From positions 1-64,000 of the forward strand of contig RXJR01000033.1 of NCBI GenBank assembly GCA_003963305.1: a stretch of DNA of 64,000 nucleotides, written 5' to 3'. The position numbers were made by a program, and so were the translations under genes. The notes beneath the pieces are model-generated. The model saw only the letters and a program-made list of their open reading frames with translations. It made no database searches and had not been told where the DNA came from. Source of the stretch: Candidatus Melainabacteria bacterium (lineage in GTDB: Bacteria; Cyanobacteriota; Vampirovibrionia; Obscuribacterales; Obscuribacteraceae). Positions 38,578 to 64,000 of this stretch are shown here, one piece after another (positions within the stretch are counted from its first letter, which is position 1; every line of letters begins with the position of its first letter).

Positions 38578-38614
38578 CAAGAGCCAGGACGGCTCGCAAC
38601 CGACCGCGATATGG

Positions 38615-39075: not shown

Positions 39076-39089
39076 CACCACTTCTGGTG
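39076..39089. repeat. CACC-N6-GGTG palindrome, copy 7
   Basis: Spacer acttct, about 40 bases upstream of the third M1 gene start. Copies 6 and 7 are only 79 bases apart. Confidence 0.6.
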
Positions 39090-39129
39090 ACAGCGTTTTC
39101 GATCTGATTTCGTGCGGAGACACTCTGAT

Positions 39130-47098: not shown

Positions 47099-48073
47099 TT
47101 ACGCAGAGTCACTGATTAACGGACATGAAATAACTGAATCATCAAATAAGCTCGTCTCGTCCGCTAACACAATCTTCACGCAGCAGCGCGAAAAACAGGC
47201 TACCCGCTTCGCCACAGAGCCTGTTGATGCATCAACTTGCTTTTGCTGGCTGTGCGCACCGATCACAATGAGATCAGCTGAAAAGTCTTCTGCCAGTTCG
47301 AGAATAAGATCGGCCGCATACCCGTAAAGGACCTGACCGACTACGGGATTTCCAGGCAATATCAACCTCAACCGCTCTACGTGCCAATCGAGTTCGTCTT
47401 GCCGGGCAGCCATAGCCGCATTCTTCAACTGCGTGGCTTTTCTTTGATGGAACATTTGCAGGCAGCCAATTTTATCATCGTCGACTTCATCAAGAACGCT
47501 TACAATGGCAAACTCCTGATGGGCAGACCATGTGCTGTGAGCAACCCAATCAATCGCGGCGCGCGAATTATCGGAACCGTCAAAACAAATGAGAATGCGA
47601 CGCTGATCCTGCCAGGATTTTCCGGTCCGATTGAAAACTCTTATAATCTCCAGCGAGCAAGGAATCTTTTCAATAACTTGCGATGTAACGCTGCCGAAAG
47701 CGTACAGCTGTACATTACGACGCCCATGAGACCCCATGACAATCAGCTGCGCACCCCAGCTGATTGCTGTATCGATAATTTCTTCAGCTGGATGTCCATA
47801 ACCGACTGCAAAAGTTACTGTCACCTCAGGCAATGCTCTACGCAGTTCAGCGCATCTGGTGAGCAGCTTGAAAATCGCTTCTCGTTCCTGCTCCTCTTCA
47901 AGGAAGCGCAACTTCTGCGTACTGGCGGCAGAGAGAAGCATACCGAGCTTGTCGTAATCGGGGACCACTGAGTAAAGAAGGAATTTCGTATCAGCAGGCC
48001 ATTGCCTGGCAGCGATAGAAGCAACTGCCGCATCTGAATAGCTCGAATCGTCAATTGCTACCAACACGTTCAT
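47099..48073 (-). CDS. Tandem universal stress protein (copy A)
   Basis: A 324-residue protein with two UspA domains. Domain 1 (about 1-145) has VAIDDSSYS at the start and the ATP-binding G-S-H-G-R-R-x(9)-G-S-V loop (GSHGRRNVQLYAFGSVTSQVI). Domain 2 (about 155-310) starts LICFDGSDNSRAA and ends with GAHSQQKQVDASTGSVAKRVA, where the GxHG part is altered, so nucleotide binding there may be weak. Usps help survival under stress. ATG 48073 is the family-like start (MNVLVAIDD). The neighbour at 48330 is its close duplicate. Confidence 0.85.
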   Translation of the reverse strand: MNVLVAIDDSSYSDAAVASIAARQWPADTKFLLYSVVPDYDKLGMLLSAASTQKLRFLEEEQEREAIFKLLTRCAELRRALPEVTVTFAVGYGHPAEEIIDTAISWGAQLIVMGSHGRRNVQLYAFGSVTSQVIEKIPCSLEIIRVFNRTGKSWQDQRRILICFDGSDNSRAAIDWVAHSTWSAHQEFAIVSVLDEVDDDKIGCLQMFHQRKATQLKNAAMAARQDELDWHVERLRLILPGNPVVGQVLYGYAADLILELAEDFSADLIVIGAHSQQKQVDASTGSVAKRVACFSRCCVKIVLADETSLFDDSVISCPLISDSA

Positions 48074-48249
48074 CAATAACGTTCCCTGGCTATCGAGAGG
48101 TCTCAATCTTCCGGACTAATACAATCCTGTTCTCAGTATTCGAATTGATATTATCCTTCAGTCGCAACTGGCTGTTGTGAAATCAGCTTGGCACACCTGG
48201 CGCCCTGCGGAATCGACCACGAGGATAATCGCAAGTACCGATGAAGGTT

Positions 48250-48267
48250 ATCACCCATCAAGGTGAT
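48250..48267. promoter_or_regulatory. Palindrome upstream of Usp copy A
   Basis: ATCACC and GGTGAT around spacer catcaa. A degenerate copy (ATCACC ... GTTGAT) lies at 49453-49469 upstream of Usp copy B, so the element was duplicated with the genes. Both fit the CACC-N6-GGTG format. Confidence 0.55.
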
Positions 48268-48329
48268 CCCAGTAAACGGAGCTATCAAGCATCGTCAAAG
48301 CTGAACCTACGAGATTATCGGATGAACCA

Positions 48330-49262
48330 TCAACGAAATCTGCTCATCTCGTGCGCCCTCACAACCTTCACGCAGCAGCGCGAAAAACAGGCAATCCGTT
48401 TCGCCACCGAGCCGATTGCGCTGTCTATGTGCAGTTGTTCGCTGTGAGCGCCAATGACGATGAGATCAGCTAGAAAATCTTCCGCAAGCTCAAGAATAGA
48501 CTCGGCGGCATAACCCTCCAGGACGTGCCCAATTATGGCGTTGTTGGGCATCATCTCTCTCAAACGCTCAACATGGCTGTCGAGAGCGCCTTGCGCCGCA
48601 GCTATAGCCTGTGCCTTTAACTCATTGGCTTTCTTTTGATGGAATATTTGCAATGCGCCAATCTTGTCTTCAATAGTGTTGAGGACGCTCACCAGAGCAA
48701 ACTCCTGATGAGGAGCCCAGGCACTATGCGCAACCCAATCGAGTGCCGCCCGCGAGTGATCTGAACCGTCATAACAGACGATAATTCGACGCTGATCGTG
48801 CCACGCTTTCCCGGACCGATTCAGTAATCGTATTACTTCCATGGAACACGGAGTTTTTTCAATGACCTGCGCAGTAACGCTGCCGAGCGCATAAAGCTGT
48901 ACATTGCGCCGTCCATGCGAACCCATGATGATTAGCTGCGCACCCCAGCGATGTGCTGTTTCAACAATTTGCGTGGCTGGATGTCCGTAACCGACAGCAG
49001 AACTTACAGTCACTTCGGGCAGAGAACGACGCAATCCATCGCATTTGCGCTGGAGCATGCAAATCACTTCTCGTTCCTGTTCCTCTTTCAACCGGCGTAA
49101 CTTTTGCTCATCAGGCACAGCTAGAACCTTTCCGAGCTTGTCGTAATCATTGACTACCGAGTACAGCAGAATCTCAGTGCGCGCCGGCCAATGCCTCGCA
49201 CCAACAGATATAAGAGCCGCCTCTGAATAACTTGAATCGTCGAGTGGTACCAAAACCTTCAT
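48330..49262 (-). CDS. Tandem universal stress protein (copy B)
   Basis: A 310-residue protein almost parallel to copy A: VPLDDSSYSEAALISVGARHW versus VAIDDSSYSDAAVASIAARQW, the loop GSHGRRNVQLYALGSVTAQVI, and domain 2 with VCYDGSDHSRAA and GAHSEQLHIDSAIGSVAKRIA. Copies A and B came from a whole-gene duplication that included the leader, because 48208-48227 and 49404-49423 share CGGAATCGACCACGAGGATA. ATG 49262 is preceded by a GGAAGC-type site. Confidence 0.85.
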   Translation of the reverse strand: MKVLVPLDDSSYSEAALISVGARHWPARTEILLYSVVNDYDKLGKVLAVPDEQKLRRLKEEQEREVICMLQRKCDGLRRSLPEVTVSSAVGYGHPATQIVETAHRWGAQLIIMGSHGRRNVQLYALGSVTAQVIEKTPCSMEVIRLLNRSGKAWHDQRRIIVCYDGSDHSRAALDWVAHSAWAPHQEFALVSVLNTIEDKIGALQIFHQKKANELKAQAIAAAQGALDSHVERLREMMPNNAIIGHVLEGYAAESILELAEDFLADLIVIGAHSEQLHIDSAIGSVAKRIACFSRCCVKVVRAHEMSRFR

Positions 49263-49726
49263 GACGCCTGCTTCCCTGCTTCCTGGTTACCGTGTGATTT
49301 CTATCTTTCGAACGACTTCACTTCTGTTCTCATGAGTAGAAATGCAATCATTGAACCGACTCATTGGTTAGTGTGATTCCAGCTTGTCACAACAGGTGCT
49401 GCTCGGAATCGACCACGAGGATAGTTGGAGACCTATATAGTGACGCCCGGTATCACCCAACAGGTTGATTTGCGGTCAAAGCAAGTTTTCATTCATCAGC
49501 CGAAAGAATGATGCGCGGTCAAACCGCATCATTCGCGTTGGATTCGCTTGCATTGAATCCAAAACAAAACATATTTCTTAACCAAGAGGCAAAAGGTTCG
49601 CCTTGCCTTTGAACTTCCACAATCCTTCTAAATGATAATGGATTCTCCATATCGTTAACAGATATCAACATCACAGTTTTGCCCACTGAAGCTGTCTTTC
49701 AGCGAAGAATGAGAAATGGTTAAACG
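49263..49726. other. Spacer between Usp copy B and the zinc operon
   Basis: No gene. The left part is the Usp promoter/leader. Around 49631-49657 a looser box (TGATAATGGA ... TCCATATCG) resembles the metal-regulator box downstream and may be a second, weaker site. The core box at 49727-49749 is listed separately. Confidence 0.45.
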
Positions 49727-49749
49727 ATAATGAAAACGGTTTTCATTAT
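49727..49749. promoter_or_regulatory. Zur/Fur-type operator A of the zinc operon
   Basis: A perfect inverted repeat: ATAATGAAAAC (49727-49737), one base, GTTTTCATTAT (49739-49749). It overlaps a TATAAT -10 box (49748-49753), so a bound repressor would block RNA polymerase. The next start codon (ATG 49784) is 35 bases away. The operon it controls also encodes a Fur-family regulator (57418). Confidence 0.75.
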
Positions 49750-49783
49750 ATAATTGACAACGTATTCCAGCCAGGTTTACCGG

Positions 49784-51082
49784 ATGTCTTCTTTCCTCAC
49801 CGCTCATATAGGGCGGGTAGTTTCACCGCAAAAAATTTGCAGCACCTCATCTGCGTCCTGCCAGCCAGTTGCCTTAGATGACATGAGGCGAACATCTACC
49901 GAGTGGATCTGGAGTGCCATCTACGAACCACGCATAGCAAGTCTTGAGGGCTACCTGAAGCGACCTGCCCCCTGCTTGTTCCCCGGTCAATGGCCGGCAC
50001 TTTTGCCTACTGGAACAAACAACCATTTCGCACTTGATCGAGCACGAGCACTGGCAGGCGATCAGTTTTTTGCAGACAGAGAACCTTTCAAAGGTGTCGT
50101 TACAAACACTGACATAAATTCATGGAACTGGCAGTTTCTCAAAAGGCAGCAATTCAAAGAAGTGTCTTGTCAATCAGAGTCAGTGAATGTTGCGGAGTCC
50201 AAAATTTTGCACCTGGTGCAGAAAGTGCAAGACGTGTCTTCACTGCAAAGTCTTTTTAATTTGATTCATTCGTGCTGGTCAAGCGTAGAGTTTGTCAACT
50301 ATCCAAATTCAGCTCTGCAGATAGCCCTAACTACACTCAGCCAAAGTTCCAGGCGAACACTCCAGGTTGCATTCGAGCTCGAGGAGTTTGCCAGTTATTG
50401 TGCATTGCGTTCGAATTACTTGCCAATGCAGTCCACGCTTTTTGAAGGAAAGTGGGTCGATATCGGATATCAAGACCCTGCCGAAATTCGAGCATCCGAA
50501 AGATGCATAGCAAAGAAAGTTTTGTCCGAACTCGAAAATTTGCCTCTTGGGAAAACGGCACCGCTGCTGGTGAATGAATTCGACTACATAGCAGATGGCA
50601 ATCACAGGCTCACCGCGTCCCGGGTTTGGAACGCTCTGCACGCAGCAAACGATGAACTCTGGGAGCCGGGCAACGTCCATTTTGAAGAAAAACTGTTTCG
50701 TTTCTTCAACAAAAACGCATCAGTTAAAAGCGATTTGACCGCATCAAATGCACTTGAGAGTCTATCCGAGATTCTGAATGAAGAGGAGAGCAAGCAGAGA
50801 ATCAACAACCTGAAAAGAATGATTGGCTCGCATGTAATTCGTAGAATACCCATTCTGCCGGTGCTGTCGTATAGCGGAGTGGCGATCGATAGGCGACTCT
50901 ATGAAAACGGCGGCGTCGCGTGCCGTTTCAATCCTTCTCATTATCAAATCCTGAAAGAGGATCCCTCGACCTGTTTAGCGGCAAAAGCTTGTTACCACAG
51001 GACAGACACTCTGCCGCTGCCATTGTTTTATGTGCTCGAGGCGCGACAAAAAGATTTCAGCGATAAGTGGGAGGACAAATGA
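49784..51082 (+). CDS. ParB/Srx-motif protein, possible SbnI-like serine kinase
   Basis: A 432-residue protein (from ATG 49784; a TTG at 49754 is also open but overlaps the -10 box). The most telling part is WVDIGYQDPAEIRASE...LVNEFDYIADGNHRLTASRVWNAL, near residues 235-285. A D-G-(N/H)-H-R loop with this framing is the signature of ParB/Srx folds, including SbnI and SerK, which make O-phosphoserine from serine. The N-terminal 200 residues are unknown. Being first in an operon that also has an SbnA-like enzyme, an O-phosphoserine supplier would make sense; this is inference. The stop overlaps the next gene's ATG (ATGA). Confidence 0.55.
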   Translation: MSSFLTAHIGRVVSPQKICSTSSASCQPVALDDMRRTSTEWIWSAIYEPRIASLEGYLKRPAPCLFPGQWPALLPTGTNNHFALDRARALAGDQFFADREPFKGVVTNTDINSWNWQFLKRQQFKEVSCQSESVNVAESKILHLVQKVQDVSSLQSLFNLIHSCWSSVEFVNYPNSALQIALTTLSQSSRRTLQVAFELEEFASYCALRSNYLPMQSTLFEGKWVDIGYQDPAEIRASERCIAKKVLSELENLPLGKTAPLLVNEFDYIADGNHRLTASRVWNALHAANDELWEPGNVHFEEKLFRFFNKNASVKSDLTASNALESLSEILNEEESKQRINNLKRMIGSHVIRRIPILPVLSYSGVAIDRRLYENGGVACRFNPSHYQILKEDPSTCLAAKACYHRTDTLPLPLFYVLEARQKDFSDKWEDK

Positions 51083-52080
51083 GATTTGCATTTTTAGGTA
51101 AAGGTGGCTCAGGCAAAACCACTGTCACAGCCAGCTTTATTAGACATCTTTTGAGCAAAGACTATGACGTTTTGGCGATAGACGCAGATGTAAACGTACA
51201 CCTGGCCGAGGCACTGAATGTCGAGTTGGCAGGAGCCTGCCCGTTTTTGTCCGAGTCGGTGAATGATCTTATAGAGCATTTGATAGGAACGCGGTCGGAC
51301 CTGAACGGACGACCTCTATTAGGGTCGACTCCTCCAGCTAGAGGCTCACGCCTGATTCAGGCAAACAAAAATGAGCCGGTCCTGAGGCGATTCGCGTTGC
51401 AGAGAGATGGTTTGAGTCTAATTCGTGTGGGTAACTACAACGAAGCTGACGTGGGCGATTCTTGTTATCACAGCAAGCTATCCAGTTTGGCGGTATTTCT
51501 GCATCACCTGGTAGATAGTGATGAAGAATTCGTGGTCGCCGACACGACAGCCGGCACTGATAACGTTGCCACTTCTCTAGCCTTTGCTTACGACGTAAAT
51601 ATCTTTGTTGTAGAACCGACTGCAAAGTCGCTCAGTGTCTACCAGGACTTTATGCGAATTGCACCAGAGTCGATTAAAGAGCACACGTATGTGGTCGGCA
51701 ACAAAATCGAGCACCACGATGATGAGCTCTTTATTCAGAAAACTACCGGTAAGTCTTACCTTGGCGCCCTCCCCTACTCTCGAGCGCTGAAACAATTCGA
51801 GCAGGGTAACAGCGAAAAATTGATCGAATTTCAAGCTCAACTTGAGGAGACTTTATCGAATGTCTTCCAGGTTGCCAGTCGACACAAACGAAACTGGTCC
51901 ACATATCTCTCCAGGCTGAAAGCAGTGCATAAACAGGTGGCGTCAGATTGGGCTAACGCAATGTACGGATGTGATCTGGTTTCTGGACTTGACGATCACT
52001 TTAGTTATGAAGCTGCCTTGAGCGAAATGACTGCAGTAGCATTGCCAACGCCAGCTCTTTCCAGCACCACAGGTAACTGA
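51079..52080 (+). CDS. CooC/MinD-family P-loop ATPase
   Basis: A 333-residue protein, start ATG 51079 after GGGAGG, overlapping the previous stop by four bases. It has the deviant Walker A FLGKGGSGKTTV (about 4-15), LAIDADVNVHLAEAL with the switch-I Asp, VVADTTAGTDNVATS as Walker B region, and FVVEPTAKSLSVYQD. The order resembles CooC, HypB-adjacent and MinD ATPases, which dimerise on ATP and load metals or move on membranes. CooC-type members insert nickel into carbon monoxide dehydrogenase. In a zinc operon, a role in metal insertion or in activating an enzyme of the pathway is possible. The product is cytosolic. Confidence 0.75.
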   Translation: MRFAFLGKGGSGKTTVTASFIRHLLSKDYDVLAIDADVNVHLAEALNVELAGACPFLSESVNDLIEHLIGTRSDLNGRPLLGSTPPARGSRLIQANKNEPVLRRFALQRDGLSLIRVGNYNEADVGDSCYHSKLSSLAVFLHHLVDSDEEFVVADTTAGTDNVATSLAFAYDVNIFVVEPTAKSLSVYQDFMRIAPESIKEHTYVVGNKIEHHDDELFIQKTTGKSYLGALPYSRALKQFEQGNSEKLIEFQAQLEETLSNVFQVASRHKRNWSTYLSRLKAVHKQVASDWANAMYGCDLVSGLDDHFSYEAALSEMTAVALPTPALSSTTGN

Positions 52081-52082
52081 AG

Positions 52083-53573
52083 ATGCCTGTAGAAACTAGC
52101 GCGAAAATCGCCAAAGAAAGCAGTCTCAAGTTGACGGCTCGCTTGCACGACGAAATCGCTTCGTTCTTATCTACGAAGAAAATTTTTGAACTTGTAAATG
52201 CGCTGGGAAGTCCGCTTAACGTGCTGTTTCCAACGCTGTTAGACGAAAACGTCGCTTCTTTCAGAAAGATCTTCGAAAAGCATGGTCTTTCTGGCCGAAT
52301 CTATTTCGCCCACAAGGCGAATAGATCGGATGCAATTCCCCGGCAACTGGCAACAACAGCAAGTTACATAGATGTGTCTTCCGTAAATGAACTGAGACAT
52401 GCATTAGGTAGCGGATTTGAAGCGTCACGTATTCAAGCGACCGGACCAAAAAACTCAGAATTCATGCATCTGTGCCTTCAGCACAACATCGTCATCGCAG
52501 TAGATAGCTTGCAAGAATTGGACACATTGATCGACCTGGCTTACAGAGCAGGTACGACGAAGAAGACTCGCGTTTTACTTCGTGTAAGCGGCTTTAAAAA
52601 TAGACAGGCAAAGCATCAAGGCAAAGCAAGTCGTTTCGGTATCAGGTTTGATCGCGTAGATGAGGCGCTCACTACTCTCTCGGCCCATGGTGATAAGTTC
52701 AGTTTATTAGGATTCTCATTTCATCTCGATACGGTGAGCGCACTGGAGAAAGCAGTGGCTCTGGAAAGCTGTCTGCAGCTTGTCGAGAACGCAATCGAAT
52801 TCGATTTCAATCCGAGCGTAATCAACATCGGTGGCGGCTTCAAGGTGAATTACATCGAGAACGGCAATGATTGGAGCGAGTACACATCTGCCATGAGAGA
52901 AGCGGCGCTCGGATCGCGGCCGCCTTTCACCTGGCAGGGAAGCACCTTTGGACTTTATCCCGATAAAGGTGTGTTGCGTGGAAGCTTCAACACTTACAGT
53001 TTTTATGACTCGTCTGCTGGTCCTGCGTTTATGGATGAAATTCTTTGCCATCAATGTGAAAGTACTGGTACATCAATTGCTAATTTCTTGCGAGAGAATG
53101 GTATTGAGCTCTGGATCGAGCCTGGCAGAGCACTTTTGGACCAGGTCGGAATTACAATAGCAAAGGTCAACTCACTGAAAGAATCTTCAACTGGCGACGT
53201 ACTTGTCTGCTTGAACATGAAGCGTCAGGATATTTGCTTTATCGATCAGGAAATTTTTCTCGACCCGATTGTCGTCTATCAAGAGGATCGTTTTTCTGTA
53301 GAAGACGAGATCGGCGTCTATTTCGCCGGCAATCTCTGTTTAGAAAGCGACCTGGTTACGAGACACGAAACTAAGCTTTCATCGCTGCCTGAACCCGGCG
53401 ACCTGGTGGTGTTCGTGAACACAGCGGGTTATTTTATGGATTTCAGCGCCAGTGAAGCGATCATGCACCCAATCGCGAAAAAAATTGCCGTCGAAAGAAA
53501 CGGCGATTGTTTTAGTTGGTGCCTGGATGAAAATTATTATCCAAGACTCGAAAGGAAGAGCGTATCGAAATGA
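52083..53573 (+). CDS. Y4yA-type PLP-dependent decarboxylase
   Basis: A 496-residue fold-type III enzyme of the DapDC/LysA-ornithine decarboxylase group. The PLP lysine is Lys78 in YFAHKANRS. LLGFSFHLDT (about 210), INIGGGFKV (about 248) and LWIEPGRAL (about 343) hold the cofactor phosphate and diols, and the end has NTAGYFMDF. The sequence shape is nearest to what databases call the Y4yA family. Its reaction is unknown but decarboxylation of a diamino acid or a related amino acid is expected. Members I recall sit with SbnA-like genes in siderophore-type clusters of rhizobia. It starts 2 bases after the ATPase stop and overlaps the next gene by 4 bases. Confidence 0.75.
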   Translation: MPVETSAKIAKESSLKLTARLHDEIASFLSTKKIFELVNALGSPLNVLFPTLLDENVASFRKIFEKHGLSGRIYFAHKANRSDAIPRQLATTASYIDVSSVNELRHALGSGFEASRIQATGPKNSEFMHLCLQHNIVIAVDSLQELDTLIDLAYRAGTTKKTRVLLRVSGFKNRQAKHQGKASRFGIRFDRVDEALTTLSAHGDKFSLLGFSFHLDTVSALEKAVALESCLQLVENAIEFDFNPSVINIGGGFKVNYIENGNDWSEYTSAMREAALGSRPPFTWQGSTFGLYPDKGVLRGSFNTYSFYDSSAGPAFMDEILCHQCESTGTSIANFLRENGIELWIEPGRALLDQVGITIAKVNSLKESSTGDVLVCLNMKRQDICFIDQEIFLDPIVVYQEDRFSVEDEIGVYFAGNLCLESDLVTRHETKLSSLPEPGDLVVFVNTAGYFMDFSASEAIMHPIAKKIAVERNGDCFSWCLDENYYPRLERKSVSK

Positions 53574-54919
53574 TTGTCAAACGAATTACAGAGCTGATTG
53601 GGAACACACCACTGCTGGAAATAGATCCGTCGATTCACGGTCTGAAAAACATAAACTTGTTCGCCAAGTTGGAGTTGTTCAATCCATTTGGTTCGGTCAA
53701 AGATAAGACCGCATGGAACATGCTGCGATACGACCTGGATGAGATAAAGGCCAAAGGTCAGATAGTCATCGAGTCATCGAGTGGTAACACAGCCAAAGCA
53801 GTTCAGATGATCTGTGGAGTTGAAAATATCCCCTTTAAAATCGTAACCAATCGCGTGCGAGTGAAGGAAGTCAAACAGATTCTGCAGTTGCTCGGAACTG
53901 AAATCGAGGAGCTGCCAGGTCAATCGCAATGCCTCGATCCATCAGATCCCAACGACCCTCTGTTTGTCGTGGAAAAAATTATGAACAGCGAGCCCGGACG
54001 CTATTTCCATACCACGCAGTACACCAACGAATTGAACACGAAGGCACACGCCGAAATGACGGGAGCCGAGATCGCTCAGGACCTGGAAAGGGTAGATTTT
54101 TTCATTGGCGGGCTGGGTACGACTGGCTCCACCCGTGGTGCAGGAGAAACGCTAAAGCAATACAATCCCGCCATGTCCAACATCGGAGTCGTATCGAGTA
54201 AAAACGGCTTTATACCAGGCATTCGCAATTCCGATGAGATGTTTGAAGTTGGCTTGTTCGATCGAAATTTCTATCAAGATGTAATTGAAATATCAATTGA
54301 CGAAGCATTGGATGGCATGATGATGTTAATTCGTCGTTGTGGTGTTCTTTCCGGACCAACCGGTGGCGCCAGTTTAGCGGGCGCTCTGAAGTATCTCAAA
54401 ACGATAGACTCTCAGCTACCTGAAAGACAGAATGCTGTTTTTCTCGTCTGCGATCGGGTCGAGTGGTATCTCTCATTTTTGCAAAAGCTGCGTCCAGAAT
54501 GGTTTGGTTTGAGCACAAGAGAGAGTGGTCTTAAGAAATTGACGCAGGAACACATATCTTCTGCAAAAGAAATAACTGCTGATGAGCTGGAGTTGATGGT
54601 CTCGAAGAATGAGCCTATAACTCTTGTGGATCTCAGGGGCGGACTGGCATTCAAAGGCTCACACATTGACACATCAGTAAACATGCCGGCTGAAACGCTG
54701 GAGGAACTCTTGCAATGGAGTATTCCGTTCTCGCAGAGCAAACCTGTCGTGTTGATTTGTCCCGTAGGCGATCAGTCTAAACGTTTTGCAGCTTATCTGA
54801 CCGAAGCGGGCTTTGAAAGTATGAGCCTGGAAGGGGGATTCGCCGCCTGGCGTGACAAGGAAAAGCCGGTGGTCAAAGCACGTAAGCGAAAAGAATCCAA
54901 AGCCATTTTATCAGTGTGA
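53570..54919 (+). CDS. SbnA-like cysteine-synthase-fold enzyme fused to a rhodanese domain
   Basis: A 449-residue fusion. Residues 1-325 are a fold-type II PLP enzyme: GNTPLLEI, the Schiff-base Lys44 in FGSVKDKTA, ESSSGNTAKA (68-77), GGLGTTGSTRG and GPTGGASLAG for the cofactor phosphate. The VSSKNGFIPGI style is nearest SbnA/CysK enzymes that use O-phosphoserine or O-acetylserine. Residues about 335-435 are a rhodanese domain (ITADELELMVS...LVDLRGGLAFKGSHI) with its catalytic Cys397 in VLICPVGDQSK. A persulfide on Cys397 could feed sulfur straight to the synthase. The frame is intact across the join. ATG 53570 overlaps the previous stop by four bases. Confidence 0.85.
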   Translation: MIVKRITELIGNTPLLEIDPSIHGLKNINLFAKLELFNPFGSVKDKTAWNMLRYDLDEIKAKGQIVIESSSGNTAKAVQMICGVENIPFKIVTNRVRVKEVKQILQLLGTEIEELPGQSQCLDPSDPNDPLFVVEKIMNSEPGRYFHTTQYTNELNTKAHAEMTGAEIAQDLERVDFFIGGLGTTGSTRGAGETLKQYNPAMSNIGVVSSKNGFIPGIRNSDEMFEVGLFDRNFYQDVIEISIDEALDGMMMLIRRCGVLSGPTGGASLAGALKYLKTIDSQLPERQNAVFLVCDRVEWYLSFLQKLRPEWFGLSTRESGLKKLTQEHISSAKEITADELELMVSKNEPITLVDLRGGLAFKGSHIDTSVNMPAETLEELLQWSIPFSQSKPVVLICPVGDQSKRFAAYLTEAGFESMSLEGGFAAWRDKEKPVVKARKRKESKAILSV

Positions 54920-54926
54920 GGTGCGT

Positions 54927-56210
54927 ATGGTTGTCTCATCCATGCAAATGTTGACGTCGCCGCAGTGTGTTCTGCCAGAGCCTGGCAGATTCACGAGGCT
55001 TGTCTCGTTCAGATCCGATTTTCCTATCTTGAACGACAATCCGAGCACACTTTTTTTCGACAATGCCGCCACGACTCAAAAACCCTTATCGGTCTTAGCG
55101 AAAATCGAAGAATTCAATCGACAGATATGTGCAAACGCCGGACGAGGAGCTTACTCATGGTCTACGCGACTGAGTCGTGATGTTGAGGATGTGCGCTCAC
55201 GCGTGGCCAACTTTTTGAACAGTACGACCGATCTGGTTGCTTTTACGAATGGGGCGACCGACAGCTTAAACATGGTAGCGACCATGTGGGGGCTGCATAA
55301 TCTCACAGATGGCGATGAAGTGATGCTGTGCGAAGAGGACCACGCCTCAAGTGTGTTGCCCTGGTTTAACGTGCAAGAGATGCTCAGCCGGCGCGGCATA
55401 CACATCAAAATCGTGCCTTTCCATATGCATCACACCGGTACTTACGATCGCAAGAGTCTGCAAGAGGGGTTTAGCGATCGAACGAGAATCGTCTGTTTAA
55501 GTCAAATTCACCACCTCTACGGAATGGAGATGGACATCGCGGAATTGAAAGCTCTTATCCCGCAAGATGTTTATGTATCGCTGGATGCAAGCCAGAGCGC
55601 AGGACACATCAAGATCGACAGTGAATCGCTGCAGGTTGACTTCATCTCCTTTTCCGGTCATAAAATGTTCGCCGCAAACGGAATCGGCATTCTGTGGACA
55701 AGTGCACGCGCCCTTTCGCAGATGTGGCCAATACGAGTGGGCGCCAAAACCCAGCTATTAAAAACAGGTAGATTCGACGTCGACAGACTTAAATTGAGCA
55801 ACATCGTTGAATGCGGAACTTTGAATCTGCCCGCTGTGTTATCACTGGGAGCAGCAATAGAGTTTATTGAACGCAACAACATATCGGTGATGGCCGACTA
55901 CGTTTCGAGCCTCACCATCAGTCTGCTAAAAAAACTTAGAGCGTTCGAGGGCATCGAATTTGCTCCGGGCATCGGTGTTTGCGACTGCACGAGAGGATTC
56001 GGGATTATCTCTTTTAAGTTTTCAGACGTGAGTTCAGCCGATGTAGGCGCATATCTCGATAGCGAAGAAATATTGGTCAAGACTGGAGATCAGTGTCAGG
56101 GTCGCCGCAACTCATCGGACGATCTGATTCGAGTCAGTCTACAAATCTACAATACTGTCGATGAAATCGATAGATTTGCGGAGGTGCTGAATGACGCAGT
56201 TAGCAACTAA
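54927..56210 (+). CDS. SufS-like cysteine-desulfurase-family enzyme
   Basis: A 427-residue class V aminotransferase-fold protein. LFFDNAATTQKPLSVL opens the domain, FTNGATDSLNMV binds the phosphate, LDASQSAGHIKID holds the pyridine Asp, and SFSGHKMFAANGIGIL has the Schiff-base Lys246. The C-terminal loop KTGDQCQGRR keeps Cys390 at the place of the catalytic Cys of group II (SufS) desulfurases. So it may make a persulfide that goes to the rhodanese domain encoded before it. Two differences from true SufS: IHHLYGMEMDI instead of SHVLG, and TGDQC instead of TGHHC. ATG 54927 with GAGGTG is chosen; GTG 54921 is possible. Confidence 0.8.
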   Translation: MVVSSMQMLTSPQCVLPEPGRFTRLVSFRSDFPILNDNPSTLFFDNAATTQKPLSVLAKIEEFNRQICANAGRGAYSWSTRLSRDVEDVRSRVANFLNSTTDLVAFTNGATDSLNMVATMWGLHNLTDGDEVMLCEEDHASSVLPWFNVQEMLSRRGIHIKIVPFHMHHTGTYDRKSLQEGFSDRTRIVCLSQIHHLYGMEMDIAELKALIPQDVYVSLDASQSAGHIKIDSESLQVDFISFSGHKMFAANGIGILWTSARALSQMWPIRVGAKTQLLKTGRFDVDRLKLSNIVECGTLNLPAVLSLGAAIEFIERNNISVMADYVSSLTISLLKKLRAFEGIEFAPGIGVCDCTRGFGIISFKFSDVSSADVGAYLDSEEILVKTGDQCQGRRNSSDDLIRVSLQIYNTVDEIDRFAEVLNDAVSN

Positions 56211-57414
56211 TACGTCCGTGCCCGAGAAGTCAGAGTTAGTTTTTAGAGAAGCCAGAGCGGAAGATTCTCAAAACATTGTTGCTTGCTATGAAAGTGTTTT
56301 TGGCAAAGATGGCATTAGAGCTCCGGGCCATGCTCCCTATCCAGCTCCCGAGGTTTTTTTCGAACAGGGTGTTAACCAGATAATAAGCGATTCCCTGCGT
56401 CAATTCATGGTGGTTGAGACGGCAGAAGAGATCGCCGGCGGCATGATCATCAGTCACAACAGCAAATTCCACCGCGAATTCGGTTGCGTAGCCGTATCGA
56501 CGCGGTTTCAAGGGCAAGGTATCAGTTCCTTTATGCTCAAGCAAGCTAAAGAACTGGAACGTCAACAGACTCTGTCTATTAATATCACAGAGATTGTCAC
56601 TCACAGCATGCTAAGCCAATCAGCTCATGCCTATGCGGGATACAACCAAATTACAGGTTTTGGTTTTTGCCAATATCCAAGAGTTTTCTTCAAAGATCAC
56701 CCGGAATCGTGCTTGTGGGTGACTTCATTCGAGGGTAACATAATCGAAGCTTTGCGTCGTTCACGTCCCAAATGGCACGCCGCTCAGAAGTCGCACACAA
56801 CTGGTTATGAAGATCATTTCGGGAGCTTTGAGGAGAGGCTTCTGACAAACCTCGAGCAATGCCGCGCAGTTTTTATACCACAACATTACTTGAAAATCGT
56901 TTCCAGGATTGCGTCTCAATTCGAAGAAACATTTTCTTTCCGAATTCATGGCGAGAGCGATAATCTTTCAGAGACGACAAATGGGATCACTGACTGGCAG
57001 CTGGACCCCTGCGATGACTATCCTTACGCCTACCTGAACTTGCCCTCGAGAACAATAGGCGAAGAAGAGTTGTTGCAGAAAATTCAATCACTTCCAGCCG
57101 GCAAAAGGTACATACAAGCACGAGTCTCCACAAGCAGTGCCGTTGCCATTCGGAACATCGAACTTCTTCGCACCCATGGCTTTGTGTTTCTTGGATGGGT
57201 GCCGCTTTTTCGGTACGCGGGAGACAAAGCGCCAGTTTTTGATGACGTGTTGCTCATGCAACGGTTACATCCAGATTTAGTTGCGACTAATGCCTTACCG
57301 GGTGAAACGAATGCAGTCGTGAAGTTGCACGGCTACCCTCTCAATCTGACTGGCGATCTAATCGCGACCATCCGCATGGATCTCAGAAGTTCAAAGAAAC
57401 GATGGGATGAGTAG
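56191..57414 (+). CDS. GNAT-type acyltransferase, two-domain
   Basis: A 407-residue protein starting inside the end of the previous gene (20-base overlap), which implies coupled translation. The N-terminal half is a GNAT domain: FREARAEDSQNIVACY (about 18-33), then FGCVAVSTRFQGQGISSFMLKQA (about 93-115) with the acetyl-CoA loop Q-G-Q-G-I. The C-terminal half resembles a second, degenerate GNAT repeat (YIQARVSTSSAVAIRNIELLRTHGFVFLGWVPLF). It would attach an acyl or acetyl group to an amine, presumably of the pathway's product. The substrate is not known. Confidence 0.7.
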   Translation: MTQLATNTSVPEKSELVFREARAEDSQNIVACYESVFGKDGIRAPGHAPYPAPEVFFEQGVNQIISDSLRQFMVVETAEEIAGGMIISHNSKFHREFGCVAVSTRFQGQGISSFMLKQAKELERQQTLSINITEIVTHSMLSQSAHAYAGYNQITGFGFCQYPRVFFKDHPESCLWVTSFEGNIIEALRRSRPKWHAAQKSHTTGYEDHFGSFEERLLTNLEQCRAVFIPQHYLKIVSRIASQFEETFSFRIHGESDNLSETTNGITDWQLDPCDDYPYAYLNLPSRTIGEEELLQKIQSLPAGKRYIQARVSTSSAVAIRNIELLRTHGFVFLGWVPLFRYAGDKAPVFDDVLLMQRLHPDLVATNALPGETNAVVKLHGYPLNLTGDLIATIRMDLRSSKKRWDE

Positions 57415-57417
57415 CAA

Positions 57418-57894
57418 TTGCAGCTGTGCAAGGGATCACTTTTGGCCGGGACAAGAACCGACGCGGAGCTATTGAAATTGAAAGCAGTAAGACTTAGCCG
57501 CAGCTGCCATCAAGTACTTCGATATTTGCGAGAAAAGAAAGGGCTTCATTCTGCAAACGACATCTATATGGCATTGAAGAGTGAGTTCTCCGAGGATGCA
57601 CCTGGTCTAACAACCATTTATCGATGTCTTGAGACGCTCGTACAAACCGAACGAGTGCAATCGGTAGTGCTGGGAGACAGCGAAAAAATCTTCGAGTACA
57701 TTGAAGACGGCCAACACCATCACCATCTCATCTGCACCTCGTGCAGGACGAGCGTTCATTTACACAAATGCTTTATCGAACAATGGGAAGAAAAAATAAA
57801 AACGGTACATGGATTTGAGGTACGTTCGCACATTCTCGAATTGTTTGGGCTATGTCCAGAGTGCCAGACGAGCGCAACCGCGCCCTTGAACTAG
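57418..57894 (+). CDS. zur: Fur-family regulator, Zur-like
   Basis: A 158-residue Fur-type repressor. The winged helix is at about 22-95 (LSRSCHQVLRYLREKKGLHSANDIYMALKS, GLTTIYRCLETLVQ). The sensing part has HHHHLICTSC (Cys106, Cys109) and LFGLCPECQ (Cys146, Cys149), the structural zinc site of Fur/Zur proteins, plus HGFEVRSHILELFG with regulatory His. The Zur rather than Fur label follows from the surrounding zinc-sparing genes. The annotated TTG 57418 is four bases after the previous stop; a TTG at 57475 or 57481 behind GGAG would also fit, since family members start close to LKAVRLS. The protein likely represses its own operon at site A. Confidence 0.75.
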   Translation: MQLCKGSLLAGTRTDAELLKLKAVRLSRSCHQVLRYLREKKGLHSANDIYMALKSEFSEDAPGLTTIYRCLETLVQTERVQSVVLGDSEKIFEYIEDGQHHHHLICTSCRTSVHLHKCFIEQWEEKIKTVHGFEVRSHILELFGLCPECQTSATAPLN

Positions 57895-57895
57895 C

Positions 57896-59347
57896 ATGGG
57901 CACTGCCATATCCGACAACACAAAAAATGATACTTCCAAACTACAACCGGGGTTTACCACAATCGGAGCCTGGGCTCTCGGAGTAGGCGCTTTAATTGGC
58001 TCGATGGCGTGGCTTATTCACGCTCCCATGATTGCAACTGCAGGGAACCTGGGCGCAACCCTGGCTTGGCTCATTGCCGGTGTTCTCTCTATTCCGCTGG
58101 CGCTTATTCTCATGGAATTATCGTCCATGTTTCCCACTGCGGGCGGACCATATTTCTATAAATACTATGCGCTGAAACGCCTGATTCCAGGCTATGGTGA
58201 TTTGCTTGGCTTTCTCACAGGTTGGCTCTTTTGGATCGCCCTAACCGTAGGACTGGCAATGATGTCGATTGGTTTGGTCAACCTTCTCGTCAGAACGCTT
58301 ACACCTGGCTGTCCTTTGGTCCAACACTGGCTTTTCGGTCCGTTCGTCATCGTCACACTATTTCTTTCAACAGCAGTGCTTAATTTGCACCCGGCCAGGA
58401 CATCTTCAAAAGTATCGATTGGATTTTGTTTGCTCAAGATTTTTATGGCTGCAGGCTTCGTATTGCTTGTGATCAGCTCGAACAAATGGTCGATGCATGA
58501 GGCGCTGAAAATTGTAAACCCGGGCGGTAGCAGCAATTTGCATGAAAGTATCGCTTCTGTTCTGATGCTCGCATTGACAGGTTTCACCTTCTTAGAAATT
58601 ACTGGTTGTACGTCAGCTGAGACATACAACGCCGAGAAAGCCGTTCCGAAAGCAATGATGCTGACGCTTCTGACGGGTGCCTTAGTATTCGGAACGATAA
58701 GTTTTTGCTCTGCCGGCATAATACCGCTTGCCTGCGACAACAAGCTGAAAACAATGGTCATCAGTGGTACAGCACTGGAGGCAACATGTCCAGGAATCGT
58801 CACATACGTTGCCGGCACAAGCGCGGGTGAGCTATTCTTTGGTTGTGTCATCGCGTCCATTGTTGGTGGCACATTTGGTGCACTACTGGCGCTTGCCCGA
58901 GTCGGTTATTCCATGTCTGCTAGCGGACTGTTCCCGCTGCAGTTTGCGAATACTAATCGAGACGGTGTGCCCGTCTACGCACTGTGGTTCCAGTGCTTCT
59001 GCGTCATTATCATTGCCTTGAGCACGTTGTTTTTATCCCGCCTGGGGTGGTTTCCTAACGCTTATGTCTTTCTGGGCGAGACCTTTGGATTCATGTACTC
59101 GCTGATTGGAGTGCTCTATGCAATATGTTTTCTCAGCTTGCGATACACAGATCCGGAGAGGGAACGCCCTTTCCAGGTCGGAAGCATGAAAGCCGCATGG
59201 TCTGTCAGTATCATCACAATCATAATATGGAGCTATGCGGCGATTGGTTGTGTGCAGCCAATCCATCAGCTGACAGGCTTATTTATCATGTTCAGTGGTG
59301 TGCCGGTCTATTATTTCTATAAAAATCGCAGTCTCACCAAAATTTAA
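57896..59347 (+). CDS. APC-superfamily amino-acid/polyamine permease
   Basis: A 483-residue integral membrane protein with about 12 hydrophobic segments. WALGVGALIGSMAW (about 26-39) is the TM1 G-(x)-G-x-x-x-G signature, and ELSSMFPTAGGPYFYKYYAL the conserved TM2-TM3 loop. FLEITGCTSAETYNAEKAVPKAM is the TM6-TM7 region. It imports or exchanges an amino acid or amine across the inner membrane; as the last gene of the operon it may import a precursor or export the product. It begins one base after the regulator stop (TAGC-ATG). Confidence 0.85.
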   Translation: MGTAISDNTKNDTSKLQPGFTTIGAWALGVGALIGSMAWLIHAPMIATAGNLGATLAWLIAGVLSIPLALILMELSSMFPTAGGPYFYKYYALKRLIPGYGDLLGFLTGWLFWIALTVGLAMMSIGLVNLLVRTLTPGCPLVQHWLFGPFVIVTLFLSTAVLNLHPARTSSKVSIGFCLLKIFMAAGFVLLVISSNKWSMHEALKIVNPGGSSNLHESIASVLMLALTGFTFLEITGCTSAETYNAEKAVPKAMMLTLLTGALVFGTISFCSAGIIPLACDNKLKTMVISGTALEATCPGIVTYVAGTSAGELFFGCVIASIVGGTFGALLALARVGYSMSASGLFPLQFANTNRDGVPVYALWFQCFCVIIIALSTLFLSRLGWFPNAYVFLGETFGFMYSLIGVLYAICFLSLRYTDPERERPFQVGSMKAAWSVSIITIIIWSYAAIGCVQPIHQLTGLFIMFSGVPVYYFYKNRSLTKI

Positions 59348-59402: not shown

Positions 59403-59442
59403 TTGACTTTAACGCTAACGATAATCTATTATCATTAACGTT
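59403..59442 (+). promoter_or_regulatory. Promoter and Zur-type operator B of the S4 paralogue gene
   Basis: A -35 TTGACT (59403-59408) and -10 TATTAT (59427-59432), 18 bases apart. The operator is a 32-bp imperfect inverted repeat at 59411-59442: left half AACGCTAACGATAATC, right half TATTATCATTAACGTT, 13 of 16 positions paired. The core is GATAA-N4-TTATC. The operator covers the -10 box, so it should repress. Confidence 0.75.
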
Positions 59443-59555: not shown

Positions 59556-60158
59556 ATGCGATATTTAGACTCGAAAGCAAAGCGCTGCCGCGCCGTTGGA
59601 GTGAATCTTTACGGCAATGCAAAATTTGACCGATTGTTAGCACGAGGGGCAAATCCGCCCGGAGAGCACGGTAATAAGAAACACAAATTATCCGATTATG
59701 GCGAGCATCTAAAAGAGAAGCAAAAGATACGTTGGACTTATGGTGCCTCGGAAAAACAATTTGTTCGTGCTTACGAGGAAGCGAGCCGGGCGAAGGCGGC
59801 GACAGGCACAGTTTTGCTGCAACTTCTGGAACGGAGACTCGATAACGTAGTGTATCGTTCCGGACTCTTTGCAAGCCGAGACCAGGCCCGACAGATCGTC
59901 AGTCACGGGCACGTCCTTGTGAATGGAACGAGGTTGAATGTAGCTTCAGCTCGTTTAAATCCAGGGGACGAGATCACCTTTAAAGAAAAGAGTCACTCCT
60001 TGATCAAATCATTCAGCGAATCGAACCAATCAATCGTTCCGCAATGGCTTGAAGTCAACAAAACTCCTTTACGCATAAAATTTTTAGCCGTGCCGGAACG
60101 AGAAGATCTCGACCAGACTTTTCGAGAAAATCTGGTTGTCGAATACTATTCGCGCTAA
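59556..60158 (+). CDS. rpsD: Zinc-independent (C-) ribosomal protein S4 paralogue
   Basis: A 200-residue S4. The S4 RNA-binding domain is clear: LLQLLERRLDNVVYRSGLFASRDQARQIVSHGHVLVNGTRLNVASARLNPGDEITFKE. Zinc-binding S4 forms have four cysteines near the N terminus. Here only Cys11 (KAKRCRAVG) remains, and the equivalent segment is NLYGNAKFDRLLARGANPPGEHG. It is therefore the zinc-free type and is likely to replace the zinc form in starvation. AAAGGAAAT precedes ATG 59556. Its promoter carries operator B, so it belongs to the same regulon as the upstream operon. Confidence 0.85.
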   Translation: MRYLDSKAKRCRAVGVNLYGNAKFDRLLARGANPPGEHGNKKHKLSDYGEHLKEKQKIRWTYGASEKQFVRAYEEASRAKAATGTVLLQLLERRLDNVVYRSGLFASRDQARQIVSHGHVLVNGTRLNVASARLNPGDEITFKEKSHSLIKSFSESNQSIVPQWLEVNKTPLRIKFLAVPEREDLDQTFRENLVVEYYSR

Positions 60159-60406: not shown

Positions 60407-61213
60407 TTACAGTTCGGGAGAGAGCCCCTTGTTTGCCAATCCGTAGCGTGCCTTCAGACCACGGGGCATGCCCTGGTTCATGACCGAGGCCTGCGTCAGA
60501 TAGTCGAAGTGCCACCACTCGAATGGGTAGTTGACGAAACCTACTTCCGTCATCGCCCAAAAGAGAAGGCGCCGGTTGCGAAGCGCTTCTTTGTGGCTGG
60601 CGGAGTCGGAATTCGCCAGTTCCTCGTAGTAGCGCGTGCTGCTGACACTCGATGAATCAAGATAGATGCCGCCCATGTAGGCAGCCTTGCCCGTCGCCAC
60701 CTCCTCGAGCGTAAGGTCCACGGCGCCACCGGTGGCGTGAGTGGGCCAGGTTGTTGGGTCATCGACGTTGAAGGTGCTGGGGTCGGTTGCGTAGCGGAGT
60801 GCAAAAGCAGTCCACTCGGCTTCGCTGGCATGAGGCAGAAGCTGGCGCGCCTGCTCAAGCATCCAGCCCCAGAGATCGCGCTGGACGGCAATTGGGCGAA
60901 AGCCATCCAGAACGACCACTCGCATGCCGTAGGAGCGAAGGAGCTCGTCGACCTCCTTGAGCTTGCGAGCGACGCTCTTTCGGGCGTACACGCGGATAAG
61001 CCCGGATTTGAACGCACGACCGACGGGTTGATTCAGTCCGTCGGTTCGACTGTAGAACGCATCCGTTCGAATATCGTAGTCAGCCAGGTCGACCAACGGT
61101 TCTCCATATTCGGGGGCCGTTTGATCGATCTGCACGTTCTTGTACTCGTCGGTGTCGTTCTGAGAAGCGCTAGGCGGAAGCTTCCGATCGCGAAAATCAG
61201 ATAGTGTTCTCAT
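60407..61213 (-). CDS. VanX-type D-alanyl-D-alanine dipeptidase (M15D)
   Basis: A 268-residue enzyme that splits D-Ala-D-Ala dipeptides. The zinc ligands are His and Asp in THATGGAVDLTL (about residue 158-166) and His in EWWHFDY (about 231-237), whose Glu is the catalytic base. DGFRPIAVQRDLW is also typical. No signal peptide is clear, so it is probably cytosolic, where VanX-like enzymes recycle murein dipeptide; resistance is not implied, as no VanA or VanH is near. It is GC-rich between AT-rich zinc genes. ATG 61213 overlaps the stop of a short upstream frame (ATGA). Confidence 0.85.
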   Translation of the reverse strand: MRTLSDFRDRKLPPSASQNDTDEYKNVQIDQTAPEYGEPLVDLADYDIRTDAFYSRTDGLNQPVGRAFKSGLIRVYARKSVARKLKEVDELLRSYGMRVVVLDGFRPIAVQRDLWGWMLEQARQLLPHASEAEWTAFALRYATDPSTFNVDDPTTWPTHATGGAVDLTLEEVATGKAAYMGGIYLDSSSVSSTRYYEELANSDSASHKEALRNRRLLFWAMTEVGFVNYPFEWWHFDYLTQASVMNQGMPRGLKARYGLANKGLSPEL

Positions 61214-61377: not shown

Positions 61378-62054
61378 AAATGCCTCCTTGACAAACCAGA
61401 ATGGCAGCGATGTTCATGACCGAAGCCTTGTGCTTGAGCCATGACCACAAGTTTGCAACGCTGGCAAAGACGAGCATCCAGCGACTGCGCAGTTTGAATT
61501 CCGCGCCTATTGTCGCGAACATGTAAAGCGAGTAGCGGAGATAGATGGACAAGAACAGAAGGGTAACTCCGCTCAGCCGGGTGCGGAGCTAGCGTGAACT
61601 AAGTTACACCCAGACGACAGCGAAGCCCAAAAGCCATGGTGACCACTAACGCGGCTTTGCGGGACCTTCAATCGACTGGGACTTTTCTGCAACTGCATTC
61701 ATAATTTGTCCCTTTCTCGTCGAGATTTGAAAGCACGATCACATTCAGCAAGACAGCTTGGTCTTTTAGAGGCTGAAACGTGAATTTGGATTAGCTTTTA
61801 GGCGATTTGCTTCCCAGTGGAACAGTGCATTGTTGATGATGCCTTGAGAATACAAAAGGCAGTTGATATGAGGCAACGTCTATCACGTTAGAAAAGCCCT
61901 ATTTCAGTTAGTTTCATCCGCCTTGGCTGGTGATTTTCGGGGTACCTGACAGCTTGTAAATAGTCCCATCTGCGCAGAAATGATAACCATTTCCATTTGG
62001 CGCGGCAGATGCGAATGGCGCTACTTAAATCCAGGTGCGCTAGCCACGCTAGCT

Positions 62055-62074
62055 AATGATAATGCGTTATCATT
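62055..62074. promoter_or_regulatory. Zur-type operator C
   Basis: AATGATAA (62055-62062), TGCG, TTATCATT (62067-62074). The core GATAA-N4-TTATC is identical in layout to operator B. Just right of it (62080-62088) is TAATGAAAA, the half-site of operator A. No intact gene starts close by; the nearest readable start on the minus strand is 700 bases away. Confidence 0.65.
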
Positions 62075-62235: not shown

Positions 62236-62487
62236 TCAATGAACACTTTCCGTAAATGGTAAGAGTCCGATTGCGCGAGCGCGCTTGATGGCCTTTGCAA
62301 TCATTCGTTGACTGGTCCTACCGCAGCCAGTTATTCGTGCAGGCAGAATCTTGCCTGACTCCGAGATGAACTTGCGGAGGAAGTTCACGTCTTTGTAATC
62401 AACAAACGTAATTTTGTTGGCAACCAGCGGATCAATTTTCTTGGGACGCGAAGAGATGAATGGCTCTCGGCGAGACGAATTTTTCAA
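62236..62487 (-). CDS. rpsR: Zinc-independent (C-) ribosomal protein S18 paralogue
   Basis: An 83-residue S18 (RPKKIDPLVANKITFVDYKDVNFLRKFISESGKILPARITGCGRTSQRMIAKAIKRARAIGLLPF is the family core, given here in part). The CxxC zinc ligands of the zinc form are absent; the only Cys is in TGCGRT. The start is TTG 62487, eight bases after AGGAGG, rather than the longer frame to 62553. TTG overlaps the Sel1 gene's TGA (TTGA), so translation is coupled. Together with the zinc chaperone gene upstream it forms a leftward operon. Confidence 0.85.
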   Translation of the reverse strand: MKNSSRREPFISSRPKKIDPLVANKITFVDYKDVNFLRKFISESGKILPARITGCGRTSQRMIAKAIKRARAIGLLPFTESVH

Positions 62488-63461: not shown

Positions 63462-64000
63462 TTCGTTGCGACCGCTGTGTGCAGAGGGCTGTGCGCAAAA
63501 TCACTCAATAGCTGGATATTCCATTGCGGAAACGGATCACAAAAGTCCTCCGAACCGGCCTCGGCAAGCAGAATCTCAGATTCTCTAATTAAGCAACTGT
63601 CAAGTCGGGAAATCATCCACTCCTTGTCCATGTGCATGCCGATGAAGACGAGCTCTTGACGCCTGTCTCCGTAGGGTTCGCACCAGGATTTATCTATGTC
63701 ATGTAAAAGCAGCGAATCTTGTGGCCACTTCTCTTTCGGCATGGCAGCCCACCACATCGCACCCGGTTCTATACGACATGAACCACCCGCTTGCGACCAG
63801 GCAATTGAATAGTCCATGCGCGTATAAAGCCAGAGAAAGCCTTTCGAGCGGATAACGCCAGGCCACTCTTCAGCGAGAAAGTTGCGAATTCTTTCAGGAT
63901 GAAAGGGGCGGCGAGCGCGGTACACAAAACTGGTAATTCCGTACTCAATCGACTCCGGGATATGCGTTCCCCGCATTTCTTTCATCCAACCTGGCGACTC
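63458..64000 (-). CDS. COG0523 zinc chaperone, CobW C-terminal domain (5' end outside window)
   Basis: The frame is open through the right edge, so the GTPase domain is missing here. The visible 180 residues match the CobW C-terminal domain in ZigA/YciC-type proteins: PGWMKEMRGTHIPESIEYGI, FVYRARRPFHPERI, GVIRSKGFLWLYTR, SQAGG, DRRQELVFIG and DPFPQW. Proteins of this group are GTPases that deliver zinc, and many are under Zur control. Its promoter must lie right of the window. It is first in the operon with the Sel1 protein and S18. Confidence 0.85.
   Translation of the reverse strand, partial: ESPGWMKEMRGTHIPESIEYGITSFVYRARRPFHPERIRNFLAEEWPGVIRSKGFLWLYTRMDYSIAWSQAGGSCRIEPGAMWWAAMPKEKWPQDSLLLHDIDKSWCEPYGDRRQELVFIGMHMDKEWMISRLDSCLIRESEILLAEAGSEDFCDPFPQWNIQLLSDFAHSPLHTAVATK

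Follow-up and report, generated by a model that had tools for sequence, protein, structure and literature searches.

The 64,000-nucleotide stretch analysed here (the window) corresponds to positions 1-64000 of contig C33 in a 7.48-Mb Obscuribacterales genome of the cyanobacterial phylum and carries, at 49784-59347, an operon of eight genes preceded by a perfect palindrome of the Zur-box type. We propose that this operon is repressed by a Zur-type regulator, induced upon zinc starvation and responsible for the synthesis of a small molecule that binds zinc. Most likely, this would be a zincophore that is secreted and taken up again via a TonB-driven outer-membrane receptor; taken as a whole, this scenario has in our estimate an even chance of being correct. 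Its individual elements carry different weights. Zur-mediated zinc control is predicted with high confidence and the biosynthesis of a metal ligand appears fairly probable, while for sulfur in the product and for its secretion the arguments are about balanced on either side.

Organization of the operon

A preliminary description, made from the DNA letters, had noted eight genes with gaps of a few bases or overlaps behind a perfect 23-bp inverted repeat. Indeed, all genes lie on the plus strand with a spacing of -20 to +7 bp in the list of open reading frames (ORFs), and the repeat is present at the expected site. Pfam and NCBIfam scans revealed a CbiA-type P-loop ATPase, a fold-III pyridoxal phosphate (PLP) decarboxylase, a PALP plus rhodanese fusion, a class-V aminotransferase/SufS protein, and GNAT, FUR and APC permease domains, in agreement with the ATPase, decarboxylase, SufS-like protein, acyltransferase, FUR-type regulator and permease read earlier from the sequence. 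Genes 3 to 5 are referred to as the trio.

49727-49749, operator ATAATGAAAACGGTTTTCATTAT, perfect 23-bp palindrome; its core, 49728-49748, corresponds to the published actinobacterial Zur box
49784-51082, plus strand, gene 1, ParB/Srx-like protein carrying a DGNHR motif; putative free-serine kinase that would supply O-phosphoserine; alternative start TTG 49754
51079-52080, plus strand, gene 2, CooC/ParA-type P-loop ATPase (KGGSGKTT), from Pfam and the ORF
52083-53573, plus strand, gene 3, fold-III PLP decarboxylase (diaminopimelate decarboxylase/Y4yA type), K78 and C419 invariant
53570-54919, plus strand, gene 4, CysM/SbnA-type beta-replacement enzyme (K44) with fused rhodanese domain (C397)
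54927-56210, plus strand, gene 5, SufS-like group II cysteine desulfurase, PLP lysine K246 and persulfide cysteine C390 invariant
56191-57414, plus strand, gene 6, GNAT acyltransferase, N-terminal GNAT fold and C-terminal extension
57418-57894, plus strand, gene 7, Zur-like FUR-family regulator with HHHHLIC..C; the clade has an HxLEIFGTC-type tail
57896-59347, plus strand, gene 8, APC-superfamily amino-acid-type permease

A TATAAT-like element (49749-49755) abuts the palindrome and spans the TTG at 49754, and ATG 49784 is therefore the likelier start of gene 1. A sigma-70 scan yielded no scored promoter preceding this gene.

Zur-type boxes at the operon and in other genomes

Genome-wide motif statistics are based on pattern searches. 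Even when 3 mismatches are allowed, the operator palindrome has no second copy in the 7.48-Mb genome. Its 21-bp core agrees without a single mismatch with the published Zur-box consensus taaTGaNAANNNTTNtCANta (PMC5472717), which is an actinobacterial one, the host being a member of the Obscuribacterales; at up to 2 mismatches this 21-bp pattern is matched once in the window versus 0 times in 100 shuffles. In 15 of the 17 Obscuribacterales loci with the promoter present, the first cluster gene is preceded at a distance of 11-124 bp by a box (at most 3 mismatches), one of the boxes counted lying inside an over-long first ORF. Whole-genome searches of eight relatives (at most 1 mismatch) gave 2-11 sites each, compared with 0-4 in a reversed control. 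The sites fetched from them adjoin genes for a ZIP transporter, COG0523, His-rich, MerC, TonB C-terminal and carboxypeptidase-regulatory receptor-like proteins as well as the operon itself.

Six actinobacterial genomes contain 2-9 box sites each versus none in the control, mostly at genes which, as read by eye from the sequences, encode ZnuA, ZnuB/C, the ribosomal proteins L28, L31, L32 and L33, COG0523, the start of a coelibactin-like non-ribosomal peptide synthetase (NRPS) and the cluster methyltransferase. Genes of these kinds, those for zinc-free ribosomal proteins included, are classical Zur targets (PMC6103462). With a matrix built from twelve actinobacterial sites, none of which lies at the cluster, 56 boxes were found in 48 kb of cluster promoters versus 32 in 1,119 kb elsewhere, and 52 of 60 actinobacterial loci possess a box. 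In about 40 actinobacterial loci (L139 and other Streptomyces) the trio is followed by a class I methyltransferase gene with a Zur-type box in front of it, and in Nocardia a methyltransferase of a different family is found on the opposite strand with a box of its own.

The palindromes recognized by Fur and Zur are similar, and gene 7 obtains its highest NCBIfam scores with Fur/PerR models, all of them far below the cut-off. An iron-regulated siderophore operon might thus be considered instead of a zinc-regulated one. However, the genes found behind the same box, in relatives and actinobacteria alike, are zinc genes, and the best alignment of gene 7 beyond its own clade is with an actinobacterial FUR/Zur-type gene whose locus (L117) also contains COG0523, a relationship with weak tree support and long branches. 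The iron reading was dropped after inspection of the box-sharing genes and is regarded as very improbable. Zinc starvation had already been named as the signal in the preliminary description; Zur-type boxes and zinc genes do accompany the cluster genes in two phyla, and these genes are found together rather than scattered.

The zinc island

The operon forms one end of a zinc island at C33:49.6-71 kb, of which the window covers this end.

49631-49650, degenerate even-centre box AATGATAATGGATTCTCCAT with 3 mismatches, located ahead of the operon
59416-59437, even-centre box TAACGATAATCTATTATCATTA, overlapping a promoter-like TTGACT-18-TATTAT that precedes the S4 gene
59556-60158, plus strand, ribosomal protein S4 paralogue without zinc-ligand cysteines (C-minus)
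61979-61997, odd-centre box AATGATAACCATTTCCATT, 1 mismatch, between the VanX-like and S18 genes
62055-62074, even-centre box AATGATAATGCGTTATCATT, preceding the S18 gene
62236-62553, minus strand, ribosomal protein S18 paralogue (ORF extent; the true start may be internal)
63458-64000, minus strand, COG0523 (CobW-domain) zinc GTPase, running on to C33:64702

The S4 and S18 paralogues had been described as lacking zinc ligands, which holds for both: S4 is of the C-minus type, and S18 is devoid of the CxxC motif present in its C+ paralogue on contig C5. The even-centre box AATGATAATNNATTATCATT occurs at six sites in the entire genome (at most 3 mismatches), all of them on C33:49631-70220, a clustering with a chance probability of ~1e-12 under uniform placement. 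The sites are at or near the genes for S4, S18, a small FUR protein (66272), a WD40 protein, MerC and a His-rich/CsoR-type pair, with two COG0523 genes in between, the second copy following the first past the window end. The compact part of the island, C33:63458-71177, contains besides both COG0523 genes an L33 paralogue retaining its cysteines, the small Zur-like FUR gene, a FAD (flavin adenine dinucleotide) monooxygenase-like gene, and genes for the WD40 protein, MerC, the His-rich protein and a CsoR/RcnR-type regulator, as well as three even-centre boxes (66215, 69265 and 70201). A VanX-type D-Ala-D-Ala dipeptidase-like gene is also found in the island (60407-61213), with an odd-centre box ~770 bp upstream.

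The operator of the operon belongs to the odd-centre type, further good examples of which are present in the island at 61979 and 70352. Elsewhere in the genome, odd-centre sites are found before the gene of a receptor-like protein on contig C17 (1 mismatch) and before that of a His-rich MerC protein on C31, and one with 3 mismatches precedes a TonB-FUR pair on C20, the contig which carries a paralogue of gene 7. The C17 gene (C17:110351-113188) starts 53 bp after its near-perfect box and encodes a 945-residue protein with a carboxypeptidase-regulatory domain; homologues of this type reside behind the same box in the relatives G048 and G034. Two related box types together with two Zur-like regulators (one being gene 7 and its paralogue on C20, the other the 66272 gene product) suggest that two zinc regulators might operate in this genome. 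Outside the island, two tandem double-domain universal stress protein genes (47099-49262, minus strand) directly precede the operon, and three tandem M1-type aminopeptidase paralogues of ~870-940 residues each are located at 32887-41727.

The trio and its distribution

When 84,980 genomes were searched with an alignment of the decarboxylase, 79 loci were retrieved, composed of Obscuribacterales metagenome-assembled genomes (some labelled otherwise) and 60 actinobacteria at 39-45% identity, among them Streptomyces, Nocardia, Micromonospora, Actinoplanes, Kitasatospora and others. A restriction of the trio to cyanobacterial relatives was accordingly rejected. Decarboxylase, CysM/rhodanese fusion and SufS-like genes are adjacent, in the same order and on one strand in each of the 79 loci, and the distance matrices of the three proteins correlate with r=0.85-0.97, exceeding all 500 permutations. 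The catalytic residues K78/C419 of the decarboxylase, K44/C397 of the fusion and K246/C390 of the SufS-like protein are invariant in all copies scored (80; 81 for K246), including C397 within the rhodanese active-site loop CP(V/T)G(D/E)xS (80/80). The trio is common within its own order; among 244 genomes sampled from the phylum, the fusion was detected at E<=1e-60 solely in that of the window, and in an even sample of actinobacteria it was present in 4 of 297 species. Plasmid records holding the fusion carry no annotation.

The full Obscuribacterales cluster consists of an MFS gene, divergent in most relatives, and the genes for a dioxygenase, the gene 1 protein, CooC, the decarboxylase, the fusion, the SufS-like protein, a CrtO/amine-oxidase-like FAD enzyme, GNAT, FUR, a second CooC (CooC2) and two methyltransferases. 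The operon of the window represents a shorter subtype, as in the relative G021, and for the relatives' FAD enzyme no homologue was detected in the window's genome. Homologues of gene 2 (42-50% identical) adjoin the trio in relatives and one Micromonospora, a gene 8 homologue is placed near the cluster in locus L110, and in some actinobacteria the cluster is extended by genes for an ATP-grasp ligase and an MFS protein. The eight-gene order highlighted in the preliminary description is therefore not what is conserved; the conserved unit is the trio, to which individual lineages have added CooC, the predicted ParB-like kinase, GNAT and the permease.

Paralogue replacement is the theme of the zinc island, and by analogy to the zinc-free ribosomal proteins the operon might furnish a backup route to cysteine or persulfide that dispenses with a zinc enzyme. 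CysM of Mycobacterium indeed uses O-phosphoserine with a rhodanese-fed sulfur carrier (PMC3227635). Such a zinc-sparing sulfur supply would, however, leave the invariant decarboxylase, GNAT, the methyltransferases and the dioxygenase unexplained, and the occurrence in so few actinobacterial species is typical of specialised metabolism. Because of the decarboxylase, GNAT and this patchy distribution, we consider it improbable.

Enzyme assignments and proposed pathway

Gene 1 has no usable Pfam or PDB sequence match, so that the ParB/Srx assignment of the preliminary description finds its support elsewhere, namely in the invariant DGNHR motif and in a fold match over 63 residues. The AlphaFold model (mean pLDDT, the predicted local distance difference test score, of 73.6) is related by Foldseek to SerK with a probability of 0.96 over these 63 residues (1.8 A) and to SbnI with 0.57 and 0.51, the E-values being non-significant in each case. 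With this motif and fold match, gene 1 is a candidate ParB/Srx-like free-serine kinase. The fusion of a synthase with rhodanese in gene 4 was correctly recognized, but its synthase part scores highest as cysteine synthase B/CysM and lower as SbnA. It is close to a PDB entry termed 'Rhodanese domain-containing protein' (8h4h/8h4q), a rhodanese-fused match without named function for which no paper on PDB 8H4H was found in the open PubMed Central (PMC) literature. For gene 3, the similarity is to diaminopimelate decarboxylase and its fold-III relatives. Gene 5 encodes a group II desulfurase with SufS matches in the PDB down to 3e-55 and with both K246 and C390 present, and the GNAT fold of gene 6 is confined to the N-terminal half. 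Among the eight genes and the cluster neighbours scanned no IucA/C synthetase or SbnB Pfam domain was found, and NRPS modules, a nicotianamine-like synthase and opine dehydrogenase are absent from the operon Pfam results.

From these assignments, one may reasonably infer a pathway in which an O-phosphoserine unit is combined with sulfur and acylated, and the simplest scheme using all parts would be as follows. Gene 1 would phosphorylate serine to O-phosphoserine, which the CysM-type domain of gene 4 might convert to PLP-bound aminoacrylate. Gene 5 would draw sulfur from cysteine and hand it as persulfide to the rhodanese domain of gene 4, which would supply it as the nucleophile; a second round could yield a lanthionine-like thioether. 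Subsequently, gene 3 would decarboxylate the X-CH2-CH(NH2)-COOH arm to an aminoethyl arm, as SbnH does with the diaminopropionate arm in staphyloferrin B. The aminoethyl arm might then be acylated by gene 6, and gene 8 would transport the product or a precursor. The strict conservation of the SufS and rhodanese cysteines across all copies checked speaks in favour of a route with sulfur.

The same enzymes could, in principle, also generate a sulfur-free aminopolycarboxylate zincophore, if gene 4 coupled O-phosphoserine with a second amino acid through the amine of the latter, the decarboxylase formed an ethylenediamine core like that of ethylenediaminedisuccinate (EDDS) and the rhodanese and SufS-like proteins had other roles. 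SbnA, aspergillomarasmine (AMA) synthase and Fda4 are precedents for joining O-phosphoserine to an amine: the cysteine-synthase-like, rhodanese-fused Fda4 condenses O-phosphoserine with alanine, and AMA synthase condenses it with Asp (PMC12751119). EDDS itself is produced under Zur without NRPS or NRPS-independent siderophore (NIS) enzymes (PMC4993170), and relatives of the window's genome carry the FAD, GNAT and MFS genes that constitute the fda companion set. Yet the SufS persulfide and rhodanese cysteines, invariant across two phyla, are hard to explain without sulfur transfer, and the window's genome lacks a detected homologue of the relatives' FAD enzyme. We therefore view this alternative as rather unlikely, albeit the foremost competitor of a sulfur-containing zincophore.

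Several observations weigh against a Zur-controlled, secreted, sulfur-containing zincophore. Fda4, although rhodanese-fused, makes a C-N bond (PMC12751119), so the fusion need not imply sulfur incorporation, and EDDS is a Zur-controlled zincophore devoid of sulfur (PMC4993170). Because Fda4 uses nitrogen and EDDS arises sulfur-free outside NRPS/NIS chemistry, our confidence in zinc control, ligand biosynthesis, sulfur and secretion was held at the levels given at the outset. The window operon is without a peptide-forming ligase or a clear exporter, and the TonB plug match of the receptor-like C17 protein is weak and below the Pfam cut-off (E=0.034). Most Streptomyces have their box between sufS and the methyltransferase gene, a position from which it may not drive the trio; only in Obscuribacterales and at about a dozen actinobacterial loci can direct control of the trio be clearly predicted. 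Finally, a second trio in the same genome (C10:106204-113422, minus strand) neighbours the genes of a copper-type P-type ATPase and of small membrane proteins, with no Zur box within the 20 kb fetched, and hence the product may serve non-zinc metals or stay intracellular.

The latter finding leads to an intracellular low-molecular-weight thiol or metal buffer with a bacillithiol-like role, made under zinc starvation, also used with copper and not secreted. A P-type ATPase adjoins the trio in a similar context in G021 (L025:2-5522), the sulfur-relay cysteines are invariant, and no obvious exporter is encoded in the window operon. In contrast, an MFS gene adjoins the cluster in most relatives and in the actinobacterial ATP-grasp variant, and the box is common to TonB and receptor-like genes. 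We consider such a buffer unlikely and continue to prefer the secreted zincophore.

Relation to known systems

The SbnI-SbnA-SbnH pathway of staphyloferrin B comprises the same three enzyme classes, a ParB/Srx-like serine kinase (for gene 1 a candidate assignment), an O-phosphoserine beta-replacement enzyme and a fold-III decarboxylase. The window operon differs by the absence of IucA/C synthetases and SbnB, gene 4 has better matches than SbnA, and the rhodanese fusion and the SufS-like partner have no Sbn counterpart. The zincophores known to be under Zur control are made by NRPS, opine-type or EDDS-type chemistry. The clusters for coelibactin, pseudopaline and staphylopine share with the operon the Zur box and presumably the logic of TonB-type uptake but use NRPS or opine enzymes, which the window operon lacks. 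From this lack, the preliminary description had concluded that the product would be no known zincophore; the enzymes are indeed missing from the operon, but the conclusion overlooked [S,S]-EDDS, a Zur-controlled small zinc ligand assembled by the Amycolatopsis japonicum aes system independently of NRPS and NIS enzymes (PMC4993170, PMC6103462). EDDS contains no sulfur, and Amycolatopsis is absent among the 79 trio loci; the aes system was compared by description only.

The closest characterised architecture found is that of Fusarium Fda4 of fusadapamide biosynthesis (fda3-fda5), which unites a cysteine-synthase-like and a rhodanese domain and acts on O-phosphoserine, and whose FAD, GNAT and MFS companions resemble the clusters of the window's relatives. 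The fda system is, however, fungal and NRPS-linked, the passages considered mention no SufS-like partner or decarboxylase, and zinc control is not reported (PMC12751119). Mycobacterial CysM-CysO-MoeZR provides the precedent for O-phosphoserine combined with sulfane sulfur from a rhodanese domain (PMC3227635), but consists of separate proteins, employs the carrier CysO, forms cysteine and includes no decarboxylase.

We could not match the cassette to a described pathway, and no description of it was found in the open PMC literature, a search of limited reach, so that novelty here means 'not found' rather than 'proven new'. With due caution, we put forward as a possibility well short of even odds that the cassette defines a new class of sulfur-containing zinc ligand, for example a decarboxylated lanthionine- or cysteine-derived diamine. 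It would be made without NRPS, NIS or opine enzymes by one Zur-controlled PLP-enzyme cassette, in which a SufS persulfide feeds a rhodanese-fused O-phosphoserine beta-replacement enzyme, common to Obscuribacterales and Actinomycetota.

If true, the three-enzyme cassette with its apparent sulfur relay would constitute a new route to metal ligands, and the product could be of interest for metal-chelation chemistry, since the related aspergillomarasmine family consists of metal chelators. Located behind Zur-type boxes in two phyla, the cassette is present in many soil actinobacteria, culturable Streptomyces such as S. lincolnensis and S. noursei among them, and would explain how a soil and sludge lineage without a cultured model copes with zinc shortage.

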